From positions 1-36,024 of the forward strand of contig JAJYWM010000286.1 of NCBI GenBank assembly GCA_021791455.1: a stretch of DNA of 36,024 bases, written 5' to 3'. Of the stretch, positions 30,113 to 31,393 are shown piece by piece (position 1 is the first letter of the stretch; each line of letters begins with the position of its first letter). This stretch comes from a bacterium (GTDB lineage Bacteria > Chloroflexota > Dormibacteria > UBA8260 > Bog-877). The position numbers and the translations under genes are program-made. Below the pieces are notes generated by a model, which saw only the letters and a program-made list of their open reading frames with translations, made no database searches and was not told where the DNA came from.

Positions 30113-31393
30113 TCAGCCAGCAACCGACTGAACCTGCTTCACCAAGATGGTGCCACCCACCGTAGCTGTCGCCCCGTCGGCCCAAGTGATCTGGGCGGAG
30201 TACGGGGTAAGCCCAGTGACGGGGAAGGAGTACCAAACGCTGCTCCCTTGGAACGGATAGTTGGCACTGCCAAACGTCCAGTCCACTGCGACAATGGAAC
30301 TGGTGTCCCCGGTGATCCAGAAGTGCTCAGCGAGGCCGGTGATCGCAACGGGAGCGCTTGGGTCCGGGGCGTACGGACCAACCGCCATGCAAACCGATTC
30401 GGGCGGAGCAGACGTGGTGACCGAGTGAGCCGGGTGCTGTGTGACCACCGTGTGTCCCGGCACCCATACGGAGGAAGTTGTGTACCCCGGGGGAACCCAG
30501 ACAGTCGAATACGTGTAGCCAGGGGGAACCCACACAGTGGAAGTCGTGTAGCCAGGGGGCACCCACACAGTGGAAGTCGTGTAGCCAGGGGGAACCCAGA
30601 CAGTCGAATACGTGTAGCCAGGGGGAACCCACACAGTGGAAGTCGTGTAGCCAGGGGGCACCCACACAGTGGAAGTCGTGTAGCCAGGGGGCACCCACAC
30701 AGTCGAATACGTGTAGCCAGGGGGAACCCACACAGTGGAAGTCGTGTAGCCAGGGGGCACCCACACAGTGGAAGTCGTGTAGCCAGGGGGAACCCAGACA
30801 GTGGAATAAGTGTAATGGCCCGGGTACCAGGTCGAGGTGTACCAGCTTGGGTGCCAGGCCCTCGCGAGACACCTCCACCAGTCCCCCGTGTACACGAACT
30901 GCCACTTTACGCACAAGTAGTACCCGCTGTGCCAGTGGCGGGGATAGCCCCAGTGCCCACTGACCCATGTCTTGACCGTCTTGTTGTAGCCGGCGTGGTA
31001 GGTCTTGACCGTCTTGTTGTAGCCGGCGTGGTAGGTCTTGACAATCTTGTTGTGCCCCGGGTGGTAGGTCTTGACCGTCTTGTTGTGCCCCGGGTGGTAG
31101 GTCTTGACCGTCTTGTTGTAGCCGGCGTGGTAGGTCTTGACCGTCTTGTTGTAGCCGGCGTGGTAGATTCTGGCAGTCGTATAGTAGCCGGCCTCGTACG
31201 TTGTGACGGTCTTGTAGTAGCCCGGATAGTACTTCGACGTGGTATACGCTGGGGAAGTTGTCGTCACGCTCCCGCCAGCTGATGTGGCGCACTTCGGGGT
31301 GCTGGCAGCTGCGGCGGAACTCAGGAACAGGATACCGAAGAGCGCGGCCAACGCAAGGACTAGGGTGCCAGCGCGGACCGTATGAGAACTCAT
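30113..31393 (-). CDS. Secreted fibre-like protein of 11-residue repeats
   Basis: This 426-residue protein has a signal peptide (about residues 8-30, ending SSAAAAS). Residues about 59-146 consist of eight 11-residue units of the type YNKTVKTYHAG. An aromatic spacer (147-193) contains two Cys. Residues 194-314 contain eleven units of the type YTTSTVWVPPG. The C-terminal domain (about 330-426) is beta-rich (VDWTFGSANYPFQG...AQITWADGATATV), like an Ig or PKD fold. Both repeat sets share the same period and a YxxxTVxxxxG frame, so they probably descend from one unit. A stacked beta fibre or wall-spanning stalk is inferred. ATG at 31393 overlaps the HNH-like gene stop by 4 bases. Confidence 0.88.
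   Translation of the reverse strand: MSSHTVRAGTLVLALAALFGILFLSSAAAASTPKCATSAGGSVTTTSPAYTTSKYYPGYYKTVTTYEAGYYTTARIYHAGYNKTVKTYHAGYNKTVKTYHPGHNKTVKTYHPGHNKIVKTYHAGYNKTVKTYHAGYNKTVKTWVSGHWGYPRHWHSGYYLCVKWQFVYTGDWWRCLARAWHPSWYTSTWYPGHYTYSTVWVPPGYTTSTVWVPPGYTTSTVWVPPGYTYSTVWVPPGYTTSTVWVPPGYTTSTVWVPPGYTYSTVWVPPGYTTSTVWVPPGYTTSTVWVPPGYTYSTVWVPPGYTTSSVWVPGHTVVTQHPAHSVTTSAPPESVCMAVGPYAPDPSAPVAITGLAEHFWITGDTSSIVAVDWTFGSANYPFQGSSVWYSFPVTGLTPYSAQITWADGATATVGGTILVKQVQSVAG
30452..30814 (-). repeat. 33-bp tandem repeats, VPPG set
   Basis: Eleven units of 33 bp encode YTxSTVWVPPG. Unit types alternate with period three (TYS, TTS, TTS), giving a 99-bp higher-order repeat with very little divergence, so the array expanded recently. 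Confidence 0.9.
30956..31219 (-). repeat. 33-bp tandem repeats, KTVKTY set
   Basis: About eight 33-bp units encode YNKTVKTYHAG and variants (HAG, HPG, EAG). The outer units are more divergent than the inner ones, typical of an ageing array with internal homogenisation. Confidence 0.88.

Follow-up and report, generated by a model that had tools for sequence, protein, structure and literature searches.

The open reading frame located between 30,113 bp and 31,393 bp of the window (by which we mean the whole stretch of 36,024 bp that was analysed) encodes a repeat protein, here called the fibre. Its gene is an accessory one carried by an integrated mobile element, and we tentatively read its product as a predicted Sec-secreted surface adhesive that may help cells to stay together.

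Repeat arrays, predicted structure and C-terminal domain of the fibre

The fibre gene (P0001) is on the minus strand, with its ATG at 31,393 bp and its stop codon at 30,113 bp, and encodes 426 amino acids; the coordinates given in the sequence-only reading were right. From the start codon, all on the minus strand, it encodes a signal-peptide-like N-terminus (residues 1–30; 31,304 bp–31,393 bp), repeat block 1 of eight units with the core unit YNKTVKTYHAG (residues 59–146; 30,956 bp–31,219 bp), a non-repeat spacer containing Cys161 and Cys175 (residues 147–193; 30,815 bp–30,955 bp), repeat block 2 of 11 units of the type YT[TY]STVWVPPG (residues 194–314; 30,452 bp–30,814 bp) and a PKD-like C-terminal domain containing Cys335 (residues 331–426; 30,113 bp–30,403 bp). 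The spacer was present in three of the four sequences now available for this protein and the C-terminal domain in all four. The N-terminus appeared signal-like by eye, and the fibre is predicted to be Sec-secreted.

About 19 units of 11 residues in two blocks had been proposed, and this was confirmed. There are 19 (8 + 11) units of 11 residues, the final one of block 2 being imperfect. At a lag of 11 residues, the identity was 0.78 for block 1 and 0.92 for block 2; 2000 shuffles of each block reached at most 0.25 and 0.30. Both arrays were also called by Tandem Repeats Finder, which additionally reported block 2 as a 99 bp three-unit higher-order pattern. The block 2 units were 0.95 identical to one another. 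After residue 30, aromatic residues (Y/W/F/H) made up 22% of the protein and acidic residues 2%, and the composition was Thr-rich.

A frame of YxxxTVxxxxG, said to be common to both blocks and to suggest their common origin, was rejected. The frame of block 1 is YxxTVxxxxxG and that of block 2 is YxxxTVxxxxG, so that TV is shifted by one position and no positions other than Y1 and G11 align; the mean identity between block 1 and block 2 of P0001 was 0.19. A common origin, which the frame does not support, draws better support from the relative P0003, as the two blocks of that protein are 46% identical to each other.

No LPXTG-type motif was found in any of the four sequences, query included, and no hydrophobic C-terminal tail was seen by eye in the same four. 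Judged from its sequence, the fibre is a protein without a recognised wall anchor.

AlphaFold gave the repeats a pLDDT of 22–37 in a full-length run and of 40–45 in a second run on residues 238–426. The second model contained one strand, at low confidence, in each of the seven units that it covered, and the full-length model had a strand in 3/8 units of block 1 and in 1/11 units of block 2. These predicted strands are a hint only, being compatible also with full disorder. The stalk or filament proposed in the sequence-only reading is therefore unproven: the repeat pLDDT was below 50 in both runs, and full disorder, which had been named as grounds for abandoning that reading, is possible.

When the imperfect final unit of block 2 was left out, six of the eight variable nucleotide columns in the first 10 units were silent, versus an expectation of 28%. 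The binomial P of 0.008 for this difference is rough, as the calculation treats the units as independent though they are not. In core units 3–7 of block 1, five of the six variable columns altered the residue.

The protein had been described as running from a signal peptide to an Ig-like end. The signal-like start, read by eye, stood, but the end is better termed PKD-like, on weak matches. A search of the PDB with a three-sequence profile listed chains of the collagenase ColG first (E 0.026–0.035). With a longer alignment as the profile ColG was matched at E 0.025–0.032, and with the single sequence at E 0.77. A Foldseek search with the AlphaFold model of residues 238–426, in which the domain had a pLDDT of 27–68, placed a ColG PKD domain at the top (E 0.013). 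This search gave 718 matches at E ≤ 10 and none at E ≤ 0.001; its first 20 rows included eight PKD domains and six of the adhesin SiiE. No PKD family of Pfam was listed for P0001–P0004. The C-terminal domain thus appears weakly PKD-like, PKD being at the top both by sequence profile and by predicted fold.

Family assignment and relatives of the fibre

Searches of Pfam and NCBIfam revealed no family above cut-off for the fibre. The sole PHROGs match was to a tape measure protein (E 1e-4) and covered only residues 61–146, which is repeat block 1. Because it was confined to these residues and was not seen in P0003 or P0004, this match was taken to be repeat bias and the tape-measure identity was rejected. 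These family searches agree with the earlier statement that no described adhesin could be recognised. New_glue (E 0.013 and 0.011) and, in P0003, Dr_adhesin (E 0.27) were below cut-off and were also rejected. None of the thioester, Cna or polymer adhesin families of Pfam was listed for the fibre (for thioester and Cna, in P0001–P0004 and to E 10).

In a search of 5.8 billion proteins that scored the 7995 candidates with the most shared words, three relatives were found at E ≤ 0.01. A query restricted to the last 102 residues returned the same three relatives (248 candidates). P0002 (305 amino acids) is near-identical to P0001, with an identical start, spacer and end, and lacks five units of block 1 and six units of block 2 (121 residues); it may be a natural length variant or a collapse in short-read assembly. 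P0003 (360 amino acids, 48% identical) has different 11-residue units and a similar spacer that also holds the two cysteines. P0004 (423 amino acids, 38% identical) has kept the ends and the Gly-aromatic turns, with irregular spacing. The C-terminal domains of P0003 and P0004 were 79% and 72% identical to that of P0001, though the repeats differ; the mean unit identities of the repeats between P0001 and P0003 were 0.45 and 0.27. The 11-residue period was therefore present in three of the four sequences, two of which are near-identical, and the ends and the punctuation in all four. Absence of the repeats from all relatives had been named as grounds for abandoning the sequence-only reading; the relatives keep repeats.

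Counterparts of Cys35 and Cys335, which flank the array, one at either side, were present in all four sequences, and the spacer cysteine pair in three. Conserved cysteines on both sides of the array fit joined ends as well as a linear stalk, and we infer a Cys35–Cys335 disulfide that would join the two ends.

Among plasmids, 13 records matched part of the fibre, none over more than 80% of its length; two of these were Escherichia coli AIDA-I genes and nine were from Thermus. The best plasmid match by E value, H12 of Iodobacter (E 2e-6; 29% identity over residues 53–164), was set aside, judged by its annotation alone. Matches to P0003 in three of 400 genomes of the phylum were to acidic TDHDGFDTTAN repeats and were rejected as composition, and weak matches in three of 110 genomes of the class (E 0.005–0.006) were gone on re-alignment. 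No relative was found in viral contigs with the fibre, the C-terminal alignment or the coupling protein as the query, nor in genome contigs searched with the fibre. A literature search of partial coverage found nothing on Dormibacteria together with relaxase, on aromatic 11-residue repeats or on undecapeptide repeats. By these comparisons the fibre represents a rare protein family; its kind is that of accessory repeat proteins of the surface type carried by mobile elements.

The integrated element and the gene neighbourhood of the fibre

The window contains a complete integrated element of approximately 35.4 kb. It is bounded by two identical 62 bp attachment-site repeats on the plus strand, between 110 bp and 171 bp, where the repeat covers the 3′ part of a tRNA-Leu(taa) gene (86 bp–170 bp), and between 35,470 bp and 35,531 bp. 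Between these repeats are a tyrosine integrase gene (256 bp–1404 bp, minus strand; PF00589, E 6.9e-27), a ParA-type ATPase gene, a TrwC-type relaxase gene (11,626 bp–14,958 bp, plus strand; PF08751, E 4e-61) and a type IV coupling protein gene (21,544 bp–23,394 bp, minus strand; PF12696, E 2.8e-26). Attachment-site repeats, integrase, relaxase and coupling protein are together the mark of an integrative conjugative element, and all four were found; the location of the fibre on a relaxase-bearing element was confirmed.

A polytopic membrane protein (24,648 bp–26,522 bp, minus strand), without a Pfam match, is VirB6-like by size and hydrophobicity only. No VirB4 family match was found among 30 ORFs of the window, which include every ORF of at least 500 amino acids other than one that is located antisense to the relaxase gene, with the fibre scanned from its ATG. 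PF03135 (VirB4) was found in neither of two related genomes, which are both metagenome-assembled and perhaps incomplete, and PF12846 was matched in related genomes only below its cut-off. As VirB4 was not found, self-transfer is uncertain, and the element may be mobilizable only or may use an atypical channel. The coupling protein had 32 matches at E ≤ 1e-10, of which 24, headed by the protein of the window itself, were at 53–100% identity and eight at 26–29%. Among the named ones, two were from 'Candidatus Dormibacteria' assemblies and one was from an assembly labelled Verrucomicrobiae, so that the element's host is probably a member of the Dormibacteria.

Other features were seen on the element. 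A 60 bp tandem repeat of 3.2 copies (10,801 bp–10,989 bp) overlaps the start of the listed ParA-type ORF and the stretch before it, and is a possible centromere-type repeat. The ORF between 4110 bp and 5747 bp encodes an N6/N4 DNA methylase whose C-terminal part resembles a restriction endonuclease; this single gene may constitute a modification or defence system. Three copies of the 27 nt repeat GTCTTCCCCACGCGCGTGGGGGTTACA, with starts 62–64 bp apart, are located between 18,537 bp and 18,689 bp and presumably resemble a type I-E CRISPR mini-array; no Cas-type Pfam match was found among the 30 ORFs scanned.

The fibre gene belongs to a run of five ORFs on the minus strand. This run consists of a replication-protein-like ORF (33,486 bp–34,871 bp; PF10134, E 0.0087, below cut-off), a DnaB-type helicase gene upstream of the fibre (32,107 bp–33,600 bp; PF03796, E 1.9e-76), a 235 amino acid ORF without a Pfam match, which we take to be HNH-like from its motif (31,390 bp–32,097 bp), the fibre gene and, next downstream, a 155 amino acid ORF with an N-terminal hydrophobic segment (29,541 bp–30,008 bp). 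The stop codon of the HNH-like ORF overlaps the ATG of the fibre gene (ATGA). A simple scan, which is weak evidence, found no minus-strand terminator-like site from rep to the fibre gene. A 78 amino acid ORF on the plus strand (29,112 bp–29,348 bp) then divides the minus-strand genes. Beyond it, a second minus-strand run extends from a lipoprotein-like ORF (28,258 bp–28,965 bp) to the coupling protein gene. A secreted-type ORF with a weak PKD match (27,167 bp–28,642 bp, minus strand) probably has its true start internally.

Two related loci, L002 and L003, came from a genome scan with the coupling-protein alignment. Eleven genomes of the class had a coupling-protein match at E ≤ 1e-30, and the two close ones containing these loci were compared with the window. 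In L003 the 78 amino acid ORF is 71% identical and likewise points away from the coupling protein. With a conserved plus-strand ORF between the fibre run and the coupling-protein run, co-transcription of the fibre with transfer genes is unlikely. The fibre groups with the replication genes and not with the coupling-protein run, and its link to transfer is indirect.

L002 has the same backbone as the window, with identities of 64% for the replication-protein-like ORF, 74% for DnaB, 48% for the lipoprotein-like protein (52% in L003), 45% for the polytopic membrane protein, 61% for the coupling protein, 73% for the relaxase and 70% for the secreted-type protein beside the relaxase. The secreted-type protein with the weak PKD match was 40% identical in both L002 and L003, and the HNH-like gene of L002 was 61% and 69% identical to the two copies in the window. 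L002 had no match to the fibre, and the 155 amino acid ORF was unmatched in both L002 and L003. In place of the HNH-like ORF and the fibre, L002 contains a stretch like the first 60 residues of that ORF, followed by the lipoprotein. Since the fibre gene is absent from a locus with the same backbone, it is accessory and not a core transfer part. It is not the sole accessory gene, as two secreted-type ORFs between 16,225 bp and 17,608 bp were likewise unmatched in L002.

The comparison also revealed several features beside these genes. The HNH-like ORFs at 23,615 bp–24,307 bp and 31,390 bp–32,097 bp are 61% identical over 165 residues, and the N-terminal 60 residues of the latter have their L002 match after dnaB, apart from the HNH gene. 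The Pro/Thr-rich secreted-type protein adjoining the relaxase gene (15,397 bp–16,125 bp), which is the one 70% identical in L002, is a stronger candidate than the fibre for a core surface component of the element. The 29,112 bp–29,348 bp ORF shows 42% identity over 50 residues to the window's own ORF at 9480 bp–9929 bp and possibly encodes a small DNA-binding protein. Short tandem repeats of 12 bp and 23 bp occur at the end of the rep-like gene (33,536 bp–33,654 bp, and 1975 bp–2092 bp of L002) and look like iterons inside a coding region.

A region homologous to the C-terminal domain of the fibre was found in L003, in a 1561 amino acid ORF directly before the coupling protein gene. The two share 33% identity over 108 residues, at E 1e-8 in a four-sequence database and at E 1.6e-5 in the genome search. 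This ORF is secreted-type with a signal-like segment inside it, matches PKD_4 below cut-off (E 0.048) and has no cysteine in the homologous region at the place of Cys335. The L003 genome was the sole one with a match to the C-terminal domain in 110 genomes of the class (at E 0.01) and in 400 from the phylum (at E 0.001); the L002 genome had no match at E up to 10. The other PKD-like protein of the window did not match the domain (E 0.84) and was rejected as its homologue.

Proposed role of the fibre and comparison with known systems

If the fibre is a surface adhesive, the ATGA stop-start overlap would couple its translation to the rep-dnaB run, and it would be made when the element replicates, as would precede transfer. 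Each unit would form a single beta strand ending in a Pro/Ala-Gly turn, and the units together a sheet-like body, rich in aromatic residues and Thr and poor in acidic ones, whose two ends Cys35 and Cys335 may link. The fibre would be placed at the surface without sortase. The body and the PKD-like domain would attach to the envelope of the donor and to adjacent cells or matrix, and the carrier and partner cells would thereby be held together. Gain and loss of whole units would tune the length of the body.

It is almost as conceivable, both readings being at well under even chances, that the fibre is cargo of benefit to the host: a matrix or wall-coating protein by which the carrier sticks to particles or biofilm, with no role in transfer. 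Its gene is accessory, and an ORF on the opposite strand lies between it and the coupling-protein run. The aromatic, Thr-rich composition with 2% acidic residues would suit such a protein, release would be possible without an anchor, and PKD domains, which the end resembles, are common in secreted proteins. Cargo genes typically have their own promoter, however, and the ATGA overlap with an ORF of the rep-dnaB run is unlike that arrangement; a domain homologous to that of the fibre also adjoins the coupling-protein gene of another element (L003). Because of this overlap with the replication run and this related domain in L003, the adhesive reading was placed slightly ahead of host cargo.

A role in exclusion or masking, in which the fibre coats the carrier and blocks docking by a second copy of the element, a phage or a rival element, is very unlikely. 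The fibre is accessory and predicted to be exported, and between P0001 and P0003 the repeats (0.45 and 0.27) have diverged more than the C-terminal domain (79%), a pattern that surface proteins under diversification may show; but most of the exclusion proteins known are small lipoproteins or membrane proteins, and no homology to any was found in Pfam, NCBIfam or PHROGs. It is just as improbable that the array is a decaying or low-value one, an unstable repeat expansion without selected function: P0002 lacks 11 units, the 0.95 identity of the block 2 units is such as recent copying gives and AlphaFold was not confident, but the frame is open across 19 units, block 2 variation is mostly silent, the ends and spacer are kept in P0003 at 48% identity and P0002 may be a mere assembly collapse.

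The fullest form of the adhesive reading would be a new class of adhesin: an aromatic beta-meander of 11-residue strand-turn units with a Cys35–Cys335 disulfide and a PKD-like end, varying in length by whole units, made during replication of the element and holding donor and recipient together in uncultured Dormibacteria. This combination, taken as a whole, is unlikely. If a mating role is true, the fibre would represent an adhesin sequence type unlike the thioester and aggregation-substance classes and a simple repeat open to study as a material; if it is cargo only, it would be one more accessory surface-type protein.

Compared to known systems, the best profile and fold matches of the fibre end were the PKD domains of the clostridial collagenase ColG (4jrw, 2y72, 4aqo, 4tn9); these matches were not significant (E 0.013–0.035), and no catalytic domain was seen in the fibre. 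As short repeats punctuated by Gly and Trp, those of the fibre presumably resemble the WXXGXW family. The fibre had no profile match to that family (PF12779; named in PMC8078820): PF12779 was not listed for P0001–P0004 in hmmscan to E 10, a search in which the HMMER filters drop most weak matches.

The means by which cells of Gram-positive bacteria are kept in contact during DNA transfer are known for few plasmids (PMC8092201). PrgB and other aggregation substances are surface adhesins on Gram-positive conjugative plasmids (PMC7726212), as the fibre would be on its element in the adhesive reading. PrgB differs in having an LPXTG anchor (PMC8092201) and a polymer adhesin domain; no such motif and no Pfam match to such a domain was found in the fibre. 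Plasmid pLS20 of Bacillus subtilis encodes the thioester adhesin TIE, without which mating is not efficient, chiefly in liquid; TIE has neither a sorting signal nor a lipobox (PMC8092201). It contains thioester and Cna-type domains, whereas the Pfam listing for the fibre included neither. Like the fibre, TIE is element-encoded and secreted-type, with a multi-unit body and no sorting signal (PMC8092201), and it sets a precedent for adhesins that act in conjugation while lacking both sorting signal and lipobox.
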